Below, piece after piece: positions 44 through 11,064 of a stretch of DNA of 11,178 nt (position 1 is the stretch's first letter; each line of letters begins with the position of its first letter). The stretch is from Candidatus Methylomirabilota bacterium (lineage in GTDB: Bacteria; Methylomirabilota; Methylomirabilia; Methylomirabilales; JACPAU01): contig JACPAU010000112.1 of the NCBI GenBank assembly GCA_016180705.1, forward strand, positions 1 through 11,178, read 5' to 3'. Made by a program: the position numbers and the translations under genes. The notes under the pieces are model-generated. The model was given only the letters and a program-made list of their open reading frames with translations, was not told the DNA's origin and ran no database searches.

Positions 44-73
44 AACCTACCACGGGCCAGAAATTGCTGTCAA
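44..73 (-). promoter_or_regulatory. Candidate sigma70 promoter pointing out of the window
   Basis: On the minus strand a perfect TTGACA (73-68) is followed after 18 nt by TAGGTT (49-44), which matches the -10 consensus at three of six positions including the first TA and the final T. It lies 37 nt after the MoxR stop codon, in one of the only two non-coding stretches of the window, and the spacer contains a short AT-rich patch (AATTT) rare in this DNA. The pattern resembles the promoter proposed upstream of the bactofilin gene (TTGACA, 17 nt, TAGCGT). It would start a transcript near base 37 whose first structure is the hairpin at 6-28. The gene it drives is outside the window. Confidence 0.4.
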
Positions 74-84
74 GCGCGCCGCGC

Positions 85-102
85 GCGCGCGGTCCCGCGC
101 GC
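85..102. repeat. GC-only inverted repeat after the MoxR stop
   Basis: GCGCGCGG (85-92) and CCGCGCGC (95-102) are exact inverted arms with a 2-nt centre, so about 7 bp could pair around a 4-nt loop. The repeat sits inside a longer alternating CG tract (77-103). On the minus strand it begins 7 nt after the MoxR stop codon and could act as a 3'-end stabiliser or factor-assisted terminator of the operon, but no U run follows. In DNA this rich in CG such a palindrome may also be fortuitous. Confidence 0.35.
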
Positions 103-2524: not shown

Positions 2525-5257
2525 TCACTTCCACTTCCTCCCCCGGACGATGGTGACGCCCGGCCCGGCCCCCTCCCCCGCGGGCGCCGGCCCGGCCCCC
2601 GCCCAGGCGGGCGCCCGGACGCCGCGGAGGCGGCGGGCGGCAACCTCCGCGAGAAAGAGGAGGAGGGCCGCGCCGAGGAAGAAAGGCCAGGCGTCCCGCG
2701 GCTGCCGGCTGAGCCGGCGGTTGACCCGGAACACCTCCTCCGGCCGCTCGAGGGAGCCGCCCCCGGTCAGGGCGGTAAGCCGGGCCAGGAGGCCCTCGTT
2801 CACGCCGGTGCTCCGGTGCTCCGGGGAGTACGGGAGGACGAGGCTCCCGATCTCGGAGCCGATCATCGTCCCCCGGCGCCGCTGGGCGACCCCGACCAGG
2901 TACGCCCCCTGTTCTTCCGCTGGAAAGACCCCCTCGTACTGCCCGGGCGCCACCTGCTTGAGGGGGATCACCGTCCGGGTCTTGTCGGGGCCGACGACCC
3001 CCGCCTCGGCCTCGATGAAATTGATGAACTCGCCCTGGGGATTTGCCGCCTCCAGGGTCACGATTCCCCTGCCCTCCCGGAAGGAGACGTGCGTCACCAC
3101 GTCCGCCCGGTCCTTGGTCCGGAGGGTCCACCGGACCGTCTGGGCCACGAAGCGGCCGAAGGCGGGCCAGCGGAGCCAGAGCACGCCCCACTTCGCCCGC
3201 AGGTCCGAGGTGAAGGCCACCCCCCGGCCGACGCCGAAGCGCCACGCGGCCAACACCGGGTCCCCCTGGGGGGAGGCTAGGAGGACCTCCGCGGTGACCT
3301 TGGGGGTGGTGGCCACGTAGCCGCCGAGCGGCGGGACCTCCCGCCAGTCGATGCTCCGGAGGATCTCGTGGTGCCCGTGGGTGAGGACGGGCCGGAACGG
3401 GCGCTCGATGATCGCCGACTTGCTGGCCAACTGCGCCTCGAGCGTGAAGATCCGGGGGATGCTCTGCGGGTCTTCGGTGAAGTAGAAGCGGCCCCGCCCC
3501 CACCGGCTGATGTCCCGCATGAGGCGCACGTCCGCGTCCCGCCCGATCGCCACGGTGGAGACCGTGATCTTGTCCTTATTCATCCGACGGATCAGGCCGC
3601 CGAAGTCGGCCGCGGCCGACTGCCCGTCCGAGAGGACGATGAGGTGCTTGAGCAGCGCGTCCCGGGCGTACAAGATCTCGTACGCCTCCTTCAGGGCCGG
3701 GAACATGTCGGTGCCGCCGCCGGACTTGATGGAGGCGACCTCGTTGATGATCTGGTCCTTCCGTTCCGCGCGGGCCATGGGGATGACCCACGAGTTCGCC
3801 GTGTCGAAGGCGACCACCCCGAGCTCGTTCCGCTCGTCCAGCAGCTCCACCACCAGCTGGGCCGCCTCCTTGGCCAGGTCCAGCTTGGTGAAGCGGTCCA
3901 CGCTGGTCTCCATGCTCCCGGAGCGGTCAATCACCAGCACGACGGCCAGCGAGGGAACGTCGAGCTTCTGGCGCGCCTCCATGGTGACGGGGAGCGCCTC
4001 CTCCACCGGCGTGTGGAAGTAGCCGCCGACGCCGAAGGACTCCTCCCCGCCCAGCATGACGAGGCCGCCCCCCTGGTCCCGGACGTAGGTGCGGATCAAC
4101 TCCATCTGCTGCCGGGAGAAGCGGAGGGAGGAGACGTTGCTCAGGATGACCCCGTCGTAGGCGAGGAGCGGCGGCAGGTCCCGGGGGAAGGCAGCCGGAT
4201 CCGTCAGGACCGGGTCCATCTCCTGGGCCTTGAGCGCGCCGAGGAGGTGGCGGGCCTGCTCCGCATCCCGGTCCACTACGAGGACCTTCGGCTGGCCCCG
4301 GACGGCCACCACCCCGACCGCGCGGTTGTTCTCCTCGAGGGTGTCGCTCGCCACGTCCAGGGCGGCCTGGTAGACGTGGAAGCCGGCCGCGCTCAGGGTC
4401 TGCCGGTAGGCGAAGACGTTCTTGCCCGACTCCAGCTCGACCTTCTGGCTCCCCACGAACTTCCCGTCGCGGTACAGGCTCAGGTGGCCCGAGGCGGCGC
4501 CGGAGGACCAGGCCACCACCCGCACCACGAACGGCTCCCCGCGCTTCACCTCCCGGGGGAGAACCATGCGCTCGACGAGCACCTCGGCCTCCCGCCAGCC
4601 GCCCACCGGCCGGACGTAGAGGTCCACCTCGCGCTCGCGGGCCCGCAGCGCCTCGGCCGCGGCGTCCCCCCGGGTCTCGTTGCCGTCGGTGAGCAGCACG
4701 ACCCGGTGGGCCCCGTCTCGGGGGAAGGTCGCCAGCGCGAAGCCGAGCGCCTCCGCCAGATTGGTCTGGCGGCCGGGCTCGCCGCCCGGCCGGCCGACCG
4801 GTCGCGCCCCCTTCTCCAGCGGCAGCTCCAGGCGGGCCGTCTCGGCGAAAGCCAGGACACCGGCCCGGTCCTCCTTGCCCATCGCCCCGAGCGCCTCGCG
4901 GACGAACTGCCGGGCGGCGAGCCGCTCGCTGTAGGGGACGCTGTCCGACTCGTCCAGCAGGAACAGGACGTTCAGCCGGTCCCCGGGCCGGGCGACCTGC
5001 GGCAGGAGCAGGGCGGCGAGGCAGAGGGCGGCCACCGCCGCCCGGGCCGCCAGGGCGCCCGGCGGGATCGGGCGGGCCGACCGAAAGAAGAGGGAGCCCT
5101 CGAGCAGCAGGAGCGCCAGGGCGAGGGCGGTAAGGAGGGGCCAGAGTTCCCGGGAGGTCTGGAAGGTCCGACCGCTCTCCTCCGGGCTGCCTCCCGACGG
5201 GACGGCCAGGCGGGGGGTGAGGTCGCTCTCGTCCTCGTCCACGAGGTTGGCGGCCAC
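2525..5257 (-). CDS. Large VWA / GATase-fold / VWA membrane protein (possibly fused to the BatA-like gene)
   Basis: 910 residues from a GTG at 5257 (GGGAG six bases upstream). Order of parts: about 1-37 resembles the C-terminal end of a BatA-like protein (NLVDEDESDLTPRL); TM about 38-58; basic loop; TM about 69-89; VWA domain about 95-218 with complete MIDAS (D102-x-S104-x-S106, T165, D191 in LLTDGNE); beta-sandwich about 225-318; class-I glutamine-amidotransferase-like fold about 322-430 (GGGLVMLGGEESFG, no catalytic Cys at the nucleophile elbow); second VWA about 435-600 with complete MIDAS (D444-R-S446-G-S448, T516, D544); beta-rich region; TM about 857-874 and a short basic tail. Charges place the VWA domains in the periplasm. 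The frame is open upstream of the GTG, and residues coded there (beginning TAAAGIYLLQAGGWEQR) read as good BatA-like protein, so the true start may be the BatA-like ATG at 6825 through a -1 shift, giving 1433 aa. The overlap with the downstream end of the BatA-like frame is 286 nt. Confidence 0.9.
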   Translation of the reverse strand: MAANLVDEDESDLTPRLAVPSGGSPEESGRTFQTSRELWPLLTALALALLLLEGSLFFRSARPIPPGALAARAAVAALCLAALLLPQVARPGDRLNVLFLLDESDSVPYSERLAARQFVREALGAMGKEDRAGVLAFAETARLELPLEKGARPVGRPGGEPGRQTNLAEALGFALATFPRDGAHRVVLLTDGNETRGDAAAEALRAREREVDLYVRPVGGWREAEVLVERMVLPREVKRGEPFVVRVVAWSSGAASGHLSLYRDGKFVGSQKVELESGKNVFAYRQTLSAAGFHVYQAALDVASDTLEENNRAVGVVAVRGQPKVLVVDRDAEQARHLLGALKAQEMDPVLTDPAAFPRDLPPLLAYDGVILSNVSSLRFSRQQMELIRTYVRDQGGGLVMLGGEESFGVGGYFHTPVEEALPVTMEARQKLDVPSLAVVLVIDRSGSMETSVDRFTKLDLAKEAAQLVVELLDERNELGVVAFDTANSWVIPMARAERKDQIINEVASIKSGGGTDMFPALKEAYEILYARDALLKHLIVLSDGQSAAADFGGLIRRMNKDKITVSTVAIGRDADVRLMRDISRWGRGRFYFTEDPQSIPRIFTLEAQLASKSAIIERPFRPVLTHGHHEILRSIDWREVPPLGGYVATTPKVTAEVLLASPQGDPVLAAWRFGVGRGVAFTSDLRAKWGVLWLRWPAFGRFVAQTVRWTLRTKDRADVVTHVSFREGRGIVTLEAANPQGEFINFIEAEAGVVGPDKTRTVIPLKQVAPGQYEGVFPAEEQGAYLVGVAQRRRGTMIGSEIGSLVLPYSPEHRSTGVNEGLLARLTALTGGGSLERPEEVFRVNRRLSRQPRDAWPFFLGAALLLFLAEVAARRLRGVRAPAWAGAGPAPAGEGAGPGVTIVRGRKWK

Positions 5258-6825
5258 CCGCTGCTCCCACCCGCCGGCCTGCAGGAGGTAGATCCCGGCG
5301 GCCGCCGTCCCCCCGGCGGCACGGCCACGCTGAGCGGCTGTCCCGTCGCGGTCTGCAGCGGCAGGTCCTCCAGGCGCGTCGGGTAGAGCCAGCGGATCGC
5401 GTTGCTCAGAAAGAGGGGAAAGGCAGCCCGGAGCGGGAGGTCGGAGCGGAGCGGGTCGAAGCCGACGAAGACGAGGCGCGACCCGCCCTCCTCGAACGCC
5501 AGAGCCAACGGGGTGAGCGTGGACTCGATCAGGGTCCGGCTCCCCACGAGGGACCGGACCCGCAGCGCCTCCTCGATGACGACCTGCGAGAGATCCAGGA
5601 AGCGCATGGCGGGGTGGCTCCGGTCCCAGTCCACGATCACCGGGTTGCGGATCGTCCCGGTCACCTCCAGGGGGGTATTGCCGGCCACGGTATTCACCAG
5701 GATGTATCGCCCCCGCTCCAGGCGGGCGGGGGCGACCCCGTCCAGAACCACCACGTCGTGCTCGCCGGGGTCCCCGCTGAAGAGCGGGAGGGGGACGGCC
5801 GTCAGCTCGACCTGTGGATCCGACCGCAACGCCTGTTCCAGGAAGAGGTTGCCCGGGGTGACCAGGAGGATGCGCAGCGTGTGGGGGGGCGGCAGGAGGG
5901 CCCAGGCCCGGTTATCCACCGCGAGGGCGTCCGCCACCTCGGCGGTCACCTCCAGGACCCCTCCCCCCCGATGGCTGAAGGGAACGATGAGCGCCCGGCG
6001 GGTCTCCGGGGGCAGCGTGACCTGCTGCCGGCTGATCCGGACCCCCTCCAGCGTGACCATGAGGGGGAAGGTCGTGGTCTGCTGCCCGGTGTTGGCCAGG
6101 GCGACGAACAGCTCGTGCTGGGCCCCGGAGTAGTAGTTCTTCCGGAGCGTGAGTCCGGTGATGGCTACGTTGGAAGCGGGCCCACCGACGGTGTGGACGC
6201 GCACCTGCACGCCCTTGGGCGGCGGCGGGACGGTCTGGGCGGTGGCGCGATCGGTGAAGAGGTGGACCTCGGTCTGCCCCGCGCCCTCGGCGAAGGCGGC
6301 CGCGAGGCGCAACGCGGCGGCCAGGTCGGCCCCGCCGTCCTGCGGCCTCAGGCGCGCCAGACCCGCCTTGAGCTCGCTCGCCTCCCGCGTGAGGGGGGCG
6401 GCCACCGTGGGACGGGGCCCGGCCGCGACGAGGATCGCTTCCTCCCCCAGGGCCAGCCGGTCGATGACCGCCCGGGCCTCGCTCACCGCGCGGGCGAAGC
6501 GGGACGGGCGCTCGTCGGTGGCCTGCATGCTGGCCGAGGTGTCCACGATGAGGACGGCCCGGCCGAAGCCGGCGCTCCGGGCGAGGAGCCGGGGGCGCGC
6601 AAGGGCAAGGGCCAGCGCCGTCACCAGCAGGATCTGGATCAGGAGGATGAGGGGGAGACGGAGACGCCGGAAGAGGGTCCGGCCCTGGGGCTCGCCCGCC
6701 GGCAACCGCCAGAGCAGGAGGCTGCTGACCGTGGCCTCCAGCCGCCGGCGTCGTACCGTGTACAGGAGCAGGAGGAGCGGCACCCCCAGGAGGAACAGGA
6801 GCGCCAGGGGATTGGCGAAGGTCAT
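4972..6825 (-). CDS. BatA-like VWA membrane protein, frame disrupted at its C-terminus
   Basis: 617 residues as the frame stands. It starts with the BatA N-terminal signature FANPLALLFLL: TM about 7-23, basic loop (YTVRRRRLEA..., RRLRLP), TM about 57-76. A VWA domain about 88-215 follows, with MIDAS D95-T-S97-A-S99. The Thr position is Ala (GGADLAAAL, A166) and the last motif is FTDR, so metal binding may be weakened. About 215-495 is beta-sandwich plus a degenerate amidotransferase-like fold ending in LSNAIRWLYPTRLEDLPL. From residue 507 (after VPPGG) the sequence becomes a run of R, P, S and G with no family character. The normal ending (VAANLVDEDESDL, then a TM) lies in the -1 frame. Homologues usually end at about 600 residues with that TM. 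The start overlaps the DUF58 stop as ATGA, implying translational coupling. Function: periplasm-facing VWA partner of the MoxR ATPase. The last 111 residues are probably not genuine. Confidence 0.85.
   Translation of the reverse strand: MTFANPLALLFLLGVPLLLLLYTVRRRRLEATVSSLLLWRLPAGEPQGRTLFRRLRLPLILLIQILLVTALALALARPRLLARSAGFGRAVLIVDTSASMQATDERPSRFARAVSEARAVIDRLALGEEAILVAAGPRPTVAAPLTREASELKAGLARLRPQDGGADLAAALRLAAAFAEGAGQTEVHLFTDRATAQTVPPPPKGVQVRVHTVGGPASNVAITGLTLRKNYYSGAQHELFVALANTGQQTTTFPLMVTLEGVRISRQQVTLPPETRRALIVPFSHRGGGVLEVTAEVADALAVDNRAWALLPPPHTLRILLVTPGNLFLEQALRSDPQVELTAVPLPLFSGDPGEHDVVVLDGVAPARLERGRYILVNTVAGNTPLEVTGTIRNPVIVDWDRSHPAMRFLDLSQVVIEEALRVRSLVGSRTLIESTLTPLALAFEEGGSRLVFVGFDPLRSDLPLRAAFPLFLSNAIRWLYPTRLEDLPLQTATGQPLSVAVPPGGRRPPGSTSCRPAGGSSGWPPTSWTRTRATSPPAWPSRREAARRRAVGPSRPPGNSGPSLPPSPWRSCCSRAPSSFGRPARSRRAPWRPGRRWPPSASPPCSCRRSPGPGTG
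5271..5314 (-). other. Frameshift point: slippery heptamer G GGG GGA plus downstream stem-loop
   Basis: On the minus strand, 5314-5308 reads G GGG GGA in the zero frame of the BatA-like gene, which fits the X XXY YYZ pattern for -1 slippage. After GGA (codon 506), slipping back one base continues as ACG GCG GCC, coding TAAAGIYLLQAGG, which is the expected family sequence. Six nucleotides after the heptamer, CCGCCGG (5301-5295) can pair with CCGGCGG (5277-5271) around a 17-nt loop. That geometry is right for programmed frameshifting, but hairpins are common in such GC-rich DNA. No Shine-Dalgarno-like stimulator was seen 10-14 nt upstream. The simplest alternative is one missing G in a homopolymer (seven Gs would restore the frame). 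Confidence 0.6.
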
Positions 6826-7703
6826 GCGAGGACCCCGCCGTGGGTCAGGTGGCTCAGGATGAACTCCTCAAAGGGCAGGGCCGTGCTGATCCGGATGTAG
6901 TCCGCCCCGCTTCGCCGGCAGAAGTCTTCCGCCCGAAGGCACAGGGCCTTGAGGTTCTCCAGATAAACCCGGCGGGTTTCCGATGTGAGCGCCACCTCCC
7001 GCCGCTCCCCGGTCTCCGCGTCGGTGAGAAGGAGGTCGCCCCGGTGCGGCGGGTCCAGCTCGGCCGGGGAGAGGAGGTGGATGAGCACCGGGTCGAAACC
7101 CCGTCCGAGCAGGGCGGCCAGACCCGCCTCGAACCCCCCGGGGTCCAGCAAGTCCGTGAAGAGGATGGCCAGCCCCGGCGAGCGGGCCTGGCGGGCGTAG
7201 GCAGTCAACGCCAGGTTCAGGTGCGTCCCGCCCTGGGGGGTCAGGCCGGCCAGGTGCTCCAGGACGGTGAAGATCTGGGAGCGCCCCCGAACGGGCCGGG
7301 AGAGCGAGGCCAGCCCCTCGCCCAGGATACCCAGGGCGGCCCGCTCGTGGCCGGCGAGGGCGACGTAGGAGAGGGCCGCGGCGGCCCGGGCCGCGTAGGT
7401 GAGCTTGGAGGGATCGCCGAAGCCCATGGAGCGGCTCGCGTCCAGGAGGAGGTGCAGGCAGAGGTCCTCCTCCTCGACGAAGAGTTTCAGGACCAGCCGG
7501 TCCAGGCGGCTGAAAATGTTCCAGTCCAGGTACCGGACGTCGTCGCCGGCCGCGTAGGGGCGGAAGTCGCGGAACTCGACCCCGCTGCCCCGTTTCGGCC
7601 CGCGCCGCTCTCCCTTGCCCCGCCCCCGCACGTGCTTGCGCGAGACCAGATCGAGGATCTCCAGCTTGCGGCGGAACTCCGGCTGAAAGATCGTCCGCGG
7701 CAC
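6822..7703 (-). CDS. DUF58-domain protein of the MoxR/VWA cluster
   Basis: 293 residues, the usual length for the short DUF58 family. The hallmark GVEFRDFRPYAAGDDVRYLD-W occupies 41-61. It follows a basic linker (RGRGKGERRGPKRGSG) and is followed by a VWA-like core with DASRS (D88, S90, S92), a central region LTPQGGTHLNLAL carrying a Thr, and LAILFTDLLDPGG. No signal peptide or TM segment is visible, so it should be cytoplasmic or peripheral, where it could contact MoxR. DUF58 genes almost always lie beside moxR and bat genes. The exact role is unproven. The start is a GTG at 7703 chosen by the Shine-Dalgarno sequence seven bases upstream; the stop overlaps the next ATG (ATGA). Confidence 0.94.
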   Translation of the reverse strand: MPRTIFQPEFRRKLEILDLVSRKHVRGRGKGERRGPKRGSGVEFRDFRPYAAGDDVRYLDWNIFSRLDRLVLKLFVEEEDLCLHLLLDASRSMGFGDPSKLTYAARAAAALSYVALAGHERAALGILGEGLASLSRPVRGRSQIFTVLEHLAGLTPQGGTHLNLALTAYARQARSPGLAILFTDLLDPGGFEAGLAALLGRGFDPVLIHLLSPAELDPPHRGDLLLTDAETGERREVALTSETRRVYLENLKALCLRAEDFCRRSGADYIRISTALPFEEFILSHLTHGGVLA

Positions 7704-7734: not shown

Positions 7735-9159
7735 CTAGCGCAGGGCCTCCAGGGAGTCGAAGTACTTCTTCACCTGCTCCCGGTAATCGGGGGGGATGGG
7801 CTCCTTCGTGAGAGCTTCCTCCATCATCTGCCGATACCGCGTCAGGACCTGGGTCTGGGGGAGGCGGGAGGTGCCCCGATCCCCCCGGCCGACCACGTTC
7901 GTGTTGTACGACTCGGTCGGGCCATCCCGCGCCTGGCCCCGCAGGGCGGTGTCCACGGTCCCGCCGCGCAGGCGCGGCGTCGGGATCCCGCGGGTGCTGG
8001 GCGAGGCGCCGGTGCCGGGGAGCGAGCCCGCACCCCCCATCCCATCCATGTCGGACTCGAAGCCATCCATCCCCTCGCCGGCGTTCTCGCCCCCCAGGCG
8101 GGGGAGGCGGCCGGTCGACTCGAGCTCGCTCCCGCCGCGACCCTCCCCGCGCCCGCGCAGCTGCGAGAGCGCCCGCTCCAGATTCCGCAGGGCCTCCTCC
8201 CGGCTGCCCCCCGACCCGCCCTCGTCCATGGAGAAGTCGTCGCCGTACAGCCCGCTGGTCCCCCGCCGCCCCACCCGCTCCAGCTCGGACAGGAGGCGCT
8301 TCAGTTCCTCGGCGCTCAGGTCCTTGAGGGACCGCTCCCCGAGCATCTCCCGCATCCGCCCCACGGCCACCTGGTAGGGGCTCCGGGTGAAGTCCTGCTT
8401 CAGGTCGGGGAGGGAGTCCGGCTTCCCGAGCAGTTTCAGCCGATCGTCCCCCTGCCGGATGAAGGACCCGAAGTCGGGGCGCCGGCCCGACAGTGGCGTG
8501 TCGCGGAACTCGGCCGCCTCCTCCCCCGTGGCGTGCGTCGGCGGGATGAGGCTCTGACTCATCCCCCGCTCCGGCGGCCGGACGGCGTCGGCCAGGAGCG
8601 GCCCTGCAGCCCGGGGCAGCTCGGCCGTCCGGGGCGAAGGTGCCTGCTCCTCTTCGAGAGCTGTCGGGTCCTCGGGCGCCTCGGCCAGCATTGCGCGGTC
8701 CCAGGGAATAGGCGGGAGGGCGAGCAGGAGGAGCGCCGCCGCGAGGGCGGCGCCCGCCCGGGCGAGATCCCGCCCCGGCACCCCGATGGGCAGCGCTCGG
8801 CGGCGATCGGGCTCGGTCGCCGCGGCCTCGGCCAGGGCCGCCGCCTCGACCGGCCGCCGCGTCGGCAGGCGCGCGAGCTCGACCCCGGTCGCCAGGCGAT
8901 CCTGCAGGTCGAGGCGGCCATCCAGGAGGCGCGCCGCGTCGAAGGGGTCGAGCCGTCGCAGCAGGCCCAGCGCGAAGCCGCCGACGGCGCCGAGCCCGGT
9001 CAGCGCCGCCAGCAGGAGCGGGGCCGGCATGGGGAGCAGGGAGCGGAACAGGAGGAACGGGAGACCGGCGAGCAGGCAGAGGGAGGCGCCGCGGACGGCC
9101 GCGCGCAGCCCCCGGAGGCAGCGGATGCGCCGGCAGGCGGCTCGCAGCGGGCGCCCCAT
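7735..9159 (-). CDS. 474-aa three-TM protein of unknown function with Gly-rich tail
   Basis: I do not recognise a named family. An Arg/Cys-rich N-terminus is followed by TM about 25-44 and TM about 46-67. A basic/acidic helical stretch with LDLQDRLATGVEL (82-95) resembles the segment after the TM pair in DUF4175-like proteins. A third TM lies at about 131-150. The rest (150-474) is soluble: an acidic Pro-rich linker, a helical region about 240-330 (MREMLGERSLKDLSAEELKRLLSELERV in pieces), then a Gly/Ser/Asp-rich low-complexity stretch about 310-400 (FESDMDGMGG). A conserved-looking end reads YRQMMEEALTKEPIPPDYRE then QVKKYFDSL. That ending is typical of a protein that sits in bat/MoxR-VWA operons. 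Three TMs put the long C-terminal region opposite the N-terminus. The ATG overlaps the mnmA stop by one base (TGATG), and the DUF58 GTG follows after 31 nt. Inference: a membrane partner or client-recruiting subunit of the VWA machinery. Confidence 0.85.
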   Translation of the reverse strand: MGRPLRAACRRIRCLRGLRAAVRGASLCLLAGLPFLLFRSLLPMPAPLLLAALTGLGAVGGFALGLLRRLDPFDAARLLDGRLDLQDRLATGVELARLPTRRPVEAAALAEAAATEPDRRRALPIGVPGRDLARAGAALAAALLLLALPPIPWDRAMLAEAPEDPTALEEEQAPSPRTAELPRAAGPLLADAVRPPERGMSQSLIPPTHATGEEAAEFRDTPLSGRRPDFGSFIRQGDDRLKLLGKPDSLPDLKQDFTRSPYQVAVGRMREMLGERSLKDLSAEELKRLLSELERVGRRGTSGLYGDDFSMDEGGSGGSREEALRNLERALSQLRGRGEGRGGSELESTGRLPRLGGENAGEGMDGFESDMDGMGGAGSLPGTGASPSTRGIPTPRLRGGTVDTALRGQARDGPTESYNTNVVGRGDRGTSRLPQTQVLTRYRQMMEEALTKEPIPPDYREQVKKYFDSLEALR

Positions 9160-10277
9160 CAGCCCGATCCCCTCGCCGACGCGCCGGCCCGCCAGGCGCG
9201 CCGGATCAGGCCGCCCCCGAGGACCGCGTCCGGGTCCCCGGCATCGAAGAAGGCGGCCACCTGACCCGCTGCCACGGCCCGCAGGGGATCGTCGAACCGC
9301 ACGACCACGGCCCCTTCCTCGCCGGGGACGAGCGTCGCCGGGCGGGGAGGCTGGCGGTGGCGCGCGGCCGCCAGGACGCCGCGGGGCCCTTCCAGGCGGT
9401 CGAAGGGGATGAAGGTCACCTCACCCACCTCCAGCGTGTCCACCAGGGCCTCCTCGGCCGACCCCACGACCACGGCGTTCGCGCCCGGATCCAGCGCGAC
9501 CACGTAGCGGGCCGGTCCCCCCGCGAGGCCGAGCCCGCGGCGCTGTCCGACCGTGTACCCTGCGATCCCGCCGTGCTCGCCCAGGACGCGCCCGGAGAGG
9601 TCGCGGATCGGACCGGGGCGCGCCCCCTCCGGCGCGTGCTGCCGCAGAAACGCCCGATAATCACTCCCCGGAACGAAGCAGATCTCCTGGCTCTCGGCCT
9701 TCTCGGCCACGGGGAGCCCCCGGGTGGCGGCCAGCGCCCGAACCTCCTCCTTCCGGAGCCCCCCGACGGGGAAGAGGGTGTGCAAGAGCTGGGCCTGCGT
9801 GAGCCCGCAGAGGAAGTAGGACTGGTCCTTGCGGAGATCCGCCGCGCGCCGGAGCAAGACCCGCCCGGTCGCGGGGTCCCGCCCGACGCGGGCATAGTGC
9901 CCTGTGGCGAGCTGCTCGGCGCCAAGCCGGCGGGCCGCCGCCAGGAGCGAGCCGAACTTCACATGCTGGTTACAGGCGAAGCACGGATTCGGCGTGCGGC
10001 CCGCGAGGTAGGCAGCCGTGAAGGGCGCGATGACGGTCCGGTCGAAGATCGCTTCGTGATTCAGGACGTAGTGGGGGATGCCGAGACGGCGCGCGGTGAG
10101 CCGCGCGTCGTCGGCGTCCCGCGCGGTGCAGCAGCCGTGCGTGAGGGCCGCGTCCTCGCCGCGGGGCGCGAGGCGGAGGGTGACCCCCACCACCTCGTGT
10201 CCCGCCTCTTTCAGCAGGGCGGCGGCGACGGCCGAGTCCACGCCCCCGCTCATCGCCGCCACCACCCGGTTGCCCAT
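9159..10277 (-). CDS. mnmA: tRNA-specific 2-thiouridylase MnmA
   Basis: 372 residues, normal for MnmA. The enzyme uses ATP to adenylate, then thiolate, U34 of tRNA-Lys, -Glu and -Gln, taking sulfur from a persulfide relay started by a cysteine desulfurase. Visible: PP-loop SGGVDS (10-15); CCTARDADDAR (49-59) and LGIPHYVLN (65-73); nucleophile Cys99 in NPCFACN; LATGHYARV (123-131); tRNA-contact DQSYFL (151-156); persulfide Cys200 in ESQEICFVPG; and GYTVGQRRGLG in the central domain, with a C-terminal beta-barrel. All key residues are present, so it should be active. A second CxxC partner (Cys102) is present in the NPCFAC motif. The gene starts 31 nt after the bactofilin stop, with only a weak GGGG upstream, and its stop overlaps the next start. 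Its place inside a MoxR/VWA operon is unusual; mnmA more often sits with iscS or cell-wall genes. Confidence 0.97.
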   Translation of the reverse strand: MGNRVVAAMSGGVDSAVAAALLKEAGHEVVGVTLRLAPRGEDAALTHGCCTARDADDARLTARRLGIPHYVLNHEAIFDRTVIAPFTAAYLAGRTPNPCFACNQHVKFGSLLAAARRLGAEQLATGHYARVGRDPATGRVLLRRAADLRKDQSYFLCGLTQAQLLHTLFPVGGLRKEEVRALAATRGLPVAEKAESQEICFVPGSDYRAFLRQHAPEGARPGPIRDLSGRVLGEHGGIAGYTVGQRRGLGLAGGPARYVVALDPGANAVVVGSAEEALVDTLEVGEVTFIPFDRLEGPRGVLAAARHRQPPRPATLVPGEEGAVVVRFDDPLRAVAAGQVAAFFDAGDPDAVLGGGLIRRAWRAGASARGSG

Positions 10278-10308
10278 CGGCGGACCCCGCGCGCGGGCGG
10301 CGGCCCCG

Positions 10309-10704
10309 TCACCCTGCCGACCCGCCCCCCTCTCCCTCCGGCCCCGGGCCCACCTCCGGCTCGGCCATGAGGCAAGTCCCGTTGAAGACGGCCCCCTCGG
10401 CGATGACCAGCGAGGGGGTGGTGATGTTGCCCGAGACCACGCAGGAGGTCAGGAGCTCCACCCGCTTCTTCGCCCGGATGTTCCCCACGATGCGGCCGCT
10501 GTTCACGACCGTGCCGACCTCCACCTCGGCCTTGAGGAAGCCGGGCTCCCCGACGATCAGGAGATCGTCCCCAACCACCTCTCCCTCCACGTGCCCATCA
10601 ACCCGAACCGTCCCCTGGAAGGAGAGCACGCCCTTGAACTCGGTCCCCTCGCCGAGGAACGCCTTGATCTCCGCCGGCTGCACCGCCGTCCTGTCCTTCC
10701 GCAC
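10309..10704 (-). CDS. Bactofilin (DUF583 polymer-forming protein)
   Basis: 131 residues. A short charged N-terminal tail (1-13) is followed by the bactofilin core about 14-115: AFLGEGTEFKG, VLSFQGTVRVDGHVEGEV, then VGTVVNSGRIVGNI and GNITTPSLVIAEGAVFNGTC. These are short beta-strand repeats with periodic G-x-V/I that form a right-handed beta-helix. A Gly/Pro-rich tail (116-131) follows. Bactofilins polymerise without nucleotides at the inner face of the membrane and localise cell-wall or envelope machinery. No TM is seen. The start is GTG at 10704, chosen because GAGGAG lies six bases upstream and residues onward fit the family. It is the first gene after the promoter at 10762-10790 and is followed at 31 nt by mnmA. 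Co-transcription with VWA membrane proteins suggests it could position them, which is an inference. Confidence 0.93.
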   Translation of the reverse strand: MRKDRTAVQPAEIKAFLGEGTEFKGVLSFQGTVRVDGHVEGEVVGDDLLIVGEPGFLKAEVEVGTVVNSGRIVGNIRAKKRVELLTSCVVSGNITTPSLVIAEGAVFNGTCLMAEPEVGPGPEGEGGGSAG

Positions 10705-10710
10705 GGCTCG

Positions 10711-10716
10711 CTCCTC
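10711..10716 (-). promoter_or_regulatory. Ribosome binding site of the bactofilin gene
   Basis: GAGGAG on the minus strand lies 6 nt before the GTG at 10704, a strong Shine-Dalgarno match at good spacing. It decides the GTG start, since no ATG lies near it in frame. Confidence 0.75.
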
Positions 10717-10761
10717 GCTGCGACGACGTGGTCGGGGAAACTTCAGGCAAAACTGCGCCGT

Positions 10762-10790
10762 ACGCTAACACACCCGCCCACCGGTGTCAA
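10762..10790 (-). promoter_or_regulatory. Sigma70-like promoter of the bactofilin-mnmA-MoxR/VWA operon
   Basis: On the minus strand a perfect -35 TTGACA (10790-10785) is separated by exactly 17 nt from TAGCGT (10767-10762), which keeps the TA at the start and T at the end of the -10 box. Transcription would start near 10755, leaving a leader of about 50 nt before the bactofilin GTG. It lies in the only intergenic gap between 110 and 11178 longer than 31 nt, so it is the likely promoter for the whole downstream gene run. The canonical -35 suggests the housekeeping sigma factor rather than the ECF sigma factor encoded upstream. No start-site data. Confidence 0.6.
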
Positions 10791-10819
10791 AACGGGGGGC
10801 GCGCCCGAAGCCGGCGCGC
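10789..10819 (-). terminator. Possible weak terminator after the anti-sigma gene
   Basis: On the minus strand GCGCGCC-type arms (10819-10813 and 10805-10799) form a 7-bp all-GC stem around a 7-nt loop, beginning in the last base of the anti-sigma stop codon TAG. The stem is followed by CCCCC, G and TTTT (10792-10789). The U run is short and separated from the stem by a C run, so termination may be partial. The T run is shared with the -35 box of the next promoter (GTTTTGACA). Confidence 0.35.
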
Positions 10820-11064
10820 TATGCCTCGGGGGCCTTCCGGAGGCGCTCCCGCAGGAACCGCTGCAGACGCTCGCCGAGCTCGGGCGGGATGTCCTCGCAG
10901 GCGACCTCACGAATGAGGCGCGTCGTCGCCCGGTACGTCTTCAGGAAGTTCAGGCACGGCGGGCAATCAGCCAGATGCTGGTCGATGTCCCGCGCCACCT
11001 CGGGTGAAAGCTGCCCTTCCAGGTAATCGGCCAGGAGATCCACCAGCTCCTTGCACGTGCTCAT
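10819..11064 (-). CDS. Small soluble zinc-binding anti-sigma factor (zf-HC2/ZAS)
   Basis: 81 residues. Cys4, then His30-x3-Cys34-x2-Cys37 (QHLADCPPC), is the zinc-binding pattern of the ZAS anti-sigma domain. The helix between (KELVDLLADYLEGQLSPEVA) and the helical C-terminal half (FLKTYRATTRLIREV, then LGERLQRFLRERLRK) match the family. In such proteins the N-terminal domain sandwiches the cognate sigma factor. The HxxxCxxC cysteines can be redox sensing, as in RsrA, but that is not shown here. There is no TM segment, so unlike many zf-HC2 anti-sigmas it is wholly cytoplasmic. The ATG at 11064 overlaps the sigma-factor stop (ATGA) and has GGGGGGAG five bases upstream inside the sigma gene, so the pair is translationally coupled. 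The confident partner is the adjoining sigma factor. Confidence 0.88.
   Translation of the reverse strand: MSTCKELVDLLADYLEGQLSPEVARDIDQHLADCPPCLNFLKTYRATTRLIREVACEDIPPELGERLQRFLRERLRKAPEA

Follow-up and report, generated by a model that had tools for sequence, protein, structure and literature searches.

How a BatA-like gene comes to be joined to a large VWA gene by a change of frame at a run of G is the question raised by the window, by which we mean the whole stretch of DNA analysed here (the entire contig C3, 11,178 bases, from a draft Methylomirabilota genome of 1.65 Mb that is in 302 contigs and 64% complete). On the minus strand, a first open reading frame of 617 aa (6825–4972) is accompanied by a second of 910 aa, which begins at a GTG at 5257 and lies in the -1 frame. 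The first part of the gene (5314–6825) has 504 codons in the correct frame and encodes a BatA N-terminal domain and a VWA domain (Pfam BatA PF07584 and VWA_2 PF13519). After codon 504 the frame loses its family resemblance. This happens at the heptamer GGGGGGA (5314–5308), as a preliminary description based on the letters alone had stated; the same description was right that the expected continuation, GIYLLQAGGWEQRVAANL, is found in the -1 frame, where no stop separates it from the heptamer, and that the heptamer has the X_XXZ_ZZN form of a -1 slippage site in register. The remainder of the gene in that frame (2525–5307) comprises the end of a predicted beta-strand domain followed by VWA and glutamine-amidotransferase-like regions (Pfam VWA PF00092, VWA_2 and GATase1_like PF07090), and positions 4972–5313 form an out-of-frame tail of the 617-aa frame that is not family sequence. 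A Pfam scan of both parts and of the database protein P0001 found the BatA, VWA and GATase1-like domains in order in the window gene; what the window copy lacks is the single continuous frame of the fused BatA-VWA protein of Methylomirabilota. We are confident that this is one fused gene with a net out-of-frame loss of 79 nt, and that nothing about its junction is programmed.

The junction had been described as a one-base frame change, to be diagnosed by looking for six versus seven Gs in the reads. Both the description and the diagnosis prove to be wrong, as alignment with two congeners (G002 and G003) identifies the defect as a net loss of 79 nt relative to both, not of one G. Between the flanking shared codons there are 84 nt (28 codons) in each congener and 5 nt in the window, and the DNA alignment contains one gap of 79 columns with flanks that match well. 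The first part aligns without gaps to both congeners (86% identity to G003, 84% to G002), and the second part has 87% identity to G003, gap-free over 926 codons, and 85% to G002 with small gaps. Since 79 leaves a remainder of one on division by three, a single sequence read alone shows an apparent one-base shift; a single missing G is ruled out by the congener alignment.

The missing residues are a constant part of the family among the proteins compared. A protein search with the large part found 1,281 database proteins, and among the 120 matches listed, which were those checked for these residues, the missing 28–29 residues are present in all 108 proteins of at least 1,400 aa. The other 12 of the 120 are shorter; seven of them start before the place and span it, and five start after its start. 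A structural model built for the G003 segment from 15 sequences (mean pLDDT 65, with values of 74–89 in blocks for residues 51–110) predicts seven beta strands in residues 52–114, three of which would fall in the residues missing from the window (66–93). No structure matched this domain model at E ≤ 0.001 in a fold search.

Relatives carry the two halves in one frame. The 617-aa frame was searched against the genome of the window and those of 40 relatives, 41 in all, and gave matches in 18, which consist of the window, 15 useful loci (L003–L017) and weak matches in G016 and G018; left uncounted were these two weak matches, L020 and L021 (which hit the genes of L004 and L003 a second time) and L022 (a weak second hit in G025). 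Both halves lie in one frame across the junction in 15 of the 15 relatives. Among eight named records, all seven that span the junction are single-framed there, including L023, which is the same contig as that of G003; L026 starts past the junction. A search of 95 genomes across the phylum matched 68, and in 64 of these, the window included, the match nearly covers the first part. Leaving the window aside, there are 63 near-full-length matches. For 60 of them the open frame is 1,000 aa or longer (1,035–1,388 aa in nine cases), and the remaining three (G049, G083 and G093), with frames of 612–649 aa, lie within about 340 bases of the downstream-side contig end, a position taken from the fetched end sequence for G049 and from coordinates only for G083 and G093. 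As for the other four of the 68 genomes, G042 is broken elsewhere, the matches in G051 and G073 start from a contig edge, and that in G016 is weak. What the preliminary description had named in advance as contrary to recoding, namely relatives with one continuous frame and no conserved heptamer, is what we found. Its view of the locus as two linked genes fits other phyla, but in Methylomirabilota the usual form is one fused frame. As a useful by-product, the comparison shows that fusion of the BatA part with the large VWA/glutamine-amidotransferase-like part in one gene is usual in this phylum.

The neighbouring genes, all on the minus strand, are intact where they could be compared. Downstream lie a MoxR-type AAA+ ATPase gene (110–1138; Pfam AAA_3, AAA_lid_2 and bpMoxR), which has a single unbroken match in G003, and a gene for a TPR-repeat protein (1152–2507 as scanned, Pfam TPR families, with an ATG just upstream in the DNA of 2560–2480). 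Upstream, a DUF58 gene (6822–7703; Pfam DUF58 PF01882) overlaps the BatA start by 4 nt and has a single unbroken match in G003 and likewise in G002. Across seven other genes compared with congeners there was no frame break (the MoxR and TPR genes were compared with G003 only). Beside the DUF58 gene, 7735–9159 encodes a 474-aa protein that has 74–75% identity in congeners and matches nothing in Pfam or NCBIfam at E ≤ 0.001; further upstream and in the same direction, 9159–11064 holds mnmA (tRNA 2-thiouridine synthase), a bactofilin gene and a zinc-finger anti-sigma-like gene, in an order shared with congeners. No Rfam match was found in the window.

On our best reading the two frames are one gene for a fused BatA/VWA/glutamine-amidotransferase-like protein of about 1,460 aa, as is usual in Methylomirabilota. 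The net loss of 79 nt at 5314–5308 shifts the second part to the -1 frame, and the run of G simply marks where the edges of the loss come together. The dN/dS values relative to G003 are 0.175 for the first part and 0.161 for the second, beside 0.127 for the MoxR gene, 0.164 for the DUF58 gene and 0.218 for the TPR gene. As both halves are under the same purifying selection as their neighbours, the break should be either recent or an artefact of the fragmented draft, and the gene appears to have been under normal selection until recently, or to be so still. The cautious default of the preliminary description, error or mutation, holds. As to the cause, the balance tips slightly towards an artefact, a join introduced by the assembler, over a recent mutation. 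A small and noisy survey of the genome for frame breaks matched 35 open reading frames (61 G000 contigs) and 40 (81 G002 stretches) at 70% identity or above and flagged four in each set; its filter overlooked the break in the window itself.

Other draft sequences show sporadic frame breaks elsewhere in this gene, which we count towards the reading as one interrupted gene. In G042 (contig C231, locus L032, 4000–5354, minus strand) the same gene has a sharp out-of-frame loss of 275 nt relative to G035, and the frame that follows runs on for over 1,000 aa without a stop. In two database proteins listed by the search with the 617-aa frame, P0132 (725 aa) and P0138 (726 aa), the family sequence stops near residues 487 and 502 of the family protein, respectively, so that breaks near the junction are, judging from these sequences, not unique to the window. 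The two breaks are not at the same codon, the continuation of P0132 aligns only loosely and with many gaps to the out-of-frame tail of the window, and P0138 has further stretches that by eye are not family sequence, as in error-rich sequence; we read both as sporadic breaks. A named Rokuibacteriota record, L027, has a frame change further down, in the large VWA part at about 7016–7020. The ends of P0125 and P0133 also look out of frame by eye, further downstream, and in all four of these proteins what follows is unrelated to the family and probably out of frame.

A recent real deletion, which would make the gene a young pseudogene, is a serious contender that we nevertheless do not prefer. The junction is sharp with flanks gap-free relative to G003, and unchanged selection on both parts is what would be expected of a young loss, but a join made by the assembler accounts for the same facts, and no independent sequence with the same junction turned up, a 208-aa query that included the tail matching nothing among the proteins of about 114–364 aa to which that search was confined. 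The database protein most relevant to the choice is P0005 (674 aa), which is 99% identical with five substitutions besides the start residue, and whose first codon lies within the large part, where it corresponds to the GTG at 4549 of the window. It may reflect a second assembly whose frame is also interrupted upstream, which, if so, would favour a real deletion and speak against an artefact. It is not decisive, because it carries the listing mark of the window's own proteins, though its letters differ, and because internal starts, at methionine, also occur in four other short database proteins (P0018, P0019, P0084 and P0098). The best hit in the search with the 617-aa frame, which reached proteins of about 339–1,080 aa, was 43% identical.

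Two sequence features near the junction were considered as sources of a deletion. Deletion between direct repeats was rejected: the 9-mer GCCGCCGGG flanks the junction, but by eye both copies remain. There is also an inverted repeat at 5320–5301 with a 7-bp stem and a 6-nt loop. Such stems number 27 in the window, compared to 9–22 in 10 first-order controls, and both arms of this one are kept in only one of the two congeners, for which reasons we build no mechanism on it.

A functional gene fission, by which this lineage would make two separate proteins as other phyla do, is very improbable, and we give scarcely more than token weight to the corresponding history in which the 79-nt deletion returned a fused BatA-VWA protein to a two-gene state with both parts still in use. 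Those relatives of the BatA part that have named sources in other phyla stand alone, at about 600–620 aa, and a GTG at 5257 or 4549 could start the second part, but the first product would carry a 113-residue out-of-frame tail and be deprived of the rest of the beta-strand domain. Nor is the gene split at this place in any of the 15 relatives, or among the 60 phylum matches (of 63) whose frames are 1,000 aa or longer. The length of the tail is a little long for chance, with the same wrong frame open for as many codons (113) at 5% of 130 sampled starts; the matching tail of the congeners contains stops (two TGA in G002, one TGA in G003), and the tail is thus not a conserved coding end.

Least probable of all is programmed -1 ribosomal frameshifting or transcriptional slippage at GGGGGGA to give a short and a long product, a reading that is unsupported because a one-base slip would still omit 26 of the 28 residues found in the congeners and kept by relatives, three of the seven predicted strands among them, so that the shifted product would not equal the family protein. 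The preliminary description had kept it as one of its open readings; we regard it as very unlikely, since the relatives are single-framed and need no shift, the site is not conserved and the protein is not restored. The heptamer is of suitable form and in register, with a GC-rich stable stem in the 68 nt that follow it; this fold does not stand out clearly from shuffled sequence (z = -1.55, with folds as stable or more so in 11 of 200 shuffles). The count of GGGGGGA in the window, nine copies where 200 shuffles averaged 10.8 (sd 3.2), is no higher than chance. GGGGGGA is in register near the junction in none of the 15 relatives: in L013 and L017 a copy lies no more than 60 nt from the flanks but out of register, the segment absent from the window carries an in-register GGGGGGC in both congeners (L003 and L004), and L012 has an in-register CCCGGGT. 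The breaks in P0132 and P0138, which lie within about 20 codons of the place, raise our estimate for recoding slightly, but the frame break is not conserved among homologues, being sporadic elsewhere in G042, L027, P0132 and P0138.

Published work bears on the motif in both directions. In a study of 64 heptamers in E. coli (PMC4066793), the most efficient are named as those with A or U in the second triplet, or C_CCC_CCC and A_AA.G_GG.G, and G_GG.G_GG.U without a stimulator had the lowest value. With a strong stimulator, 61 of the 64 exceeded the threshold, and the three below it do not include the heptamer of the window, so that the motif alone does not decide against slippage. A survey of frame transitions in complete genomes holds that programmed cases need a conserved frameshift site, and that for single protein-validated frame transitions a sequencing error is to be expected, not a genuine indel (PMC3711429). 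With the programmed -1 frameshift genes described in these two papers, the window shares a heptamer of the X_XXZ_ZZN form and differs in that its site is unconserved, is not needed by relatives and does not restore the protein. Our literature search found no paper combining Methylomirabilota, frameshift and programmed.

The break itself is ordinary and of little biological weight. Seen in one sequence only, a net loss of 3n+1 bases can mimic a site of one-base slippage, and it is comparison with relatives that settles the matter.

Compared with the fused VWA domain-containing proteins of Methylomirabilota and Rokubacteria (P0001 and similar), the window gene has the same domains in the same order, but it is a net 79 nt short and its frame is broken in two. 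Separate BatA-type proteins of 599–619 aa from Armatimonadetes, Chloroflexota, Limnocylindria, Deltaproteobacteria and Burkholderiales have BatA and VWA_2 domains and 32–40% identity to the first part; the BatA-type protein stands alone there, whereas in Methylomirabilota it is fused to the large VWA part. Genes for a MoxR-type ATPase, DUF58, BatA/VWA and TPR proteins lie side by side in the window, a cluster that we take to be akin to the bat or MoxR-VWA gene clusters, and by analogy with MoxR-VWA clusters the fused protein is probably a membrane protein that works with the MoxR-type ATPase. The bat genes of Leptospira biflexa are an example of a Bat/MoxR-VWA cluster (PMC3557215). Unlike such clusters, the window has a fused BatA-VWA-GATase-like protein.
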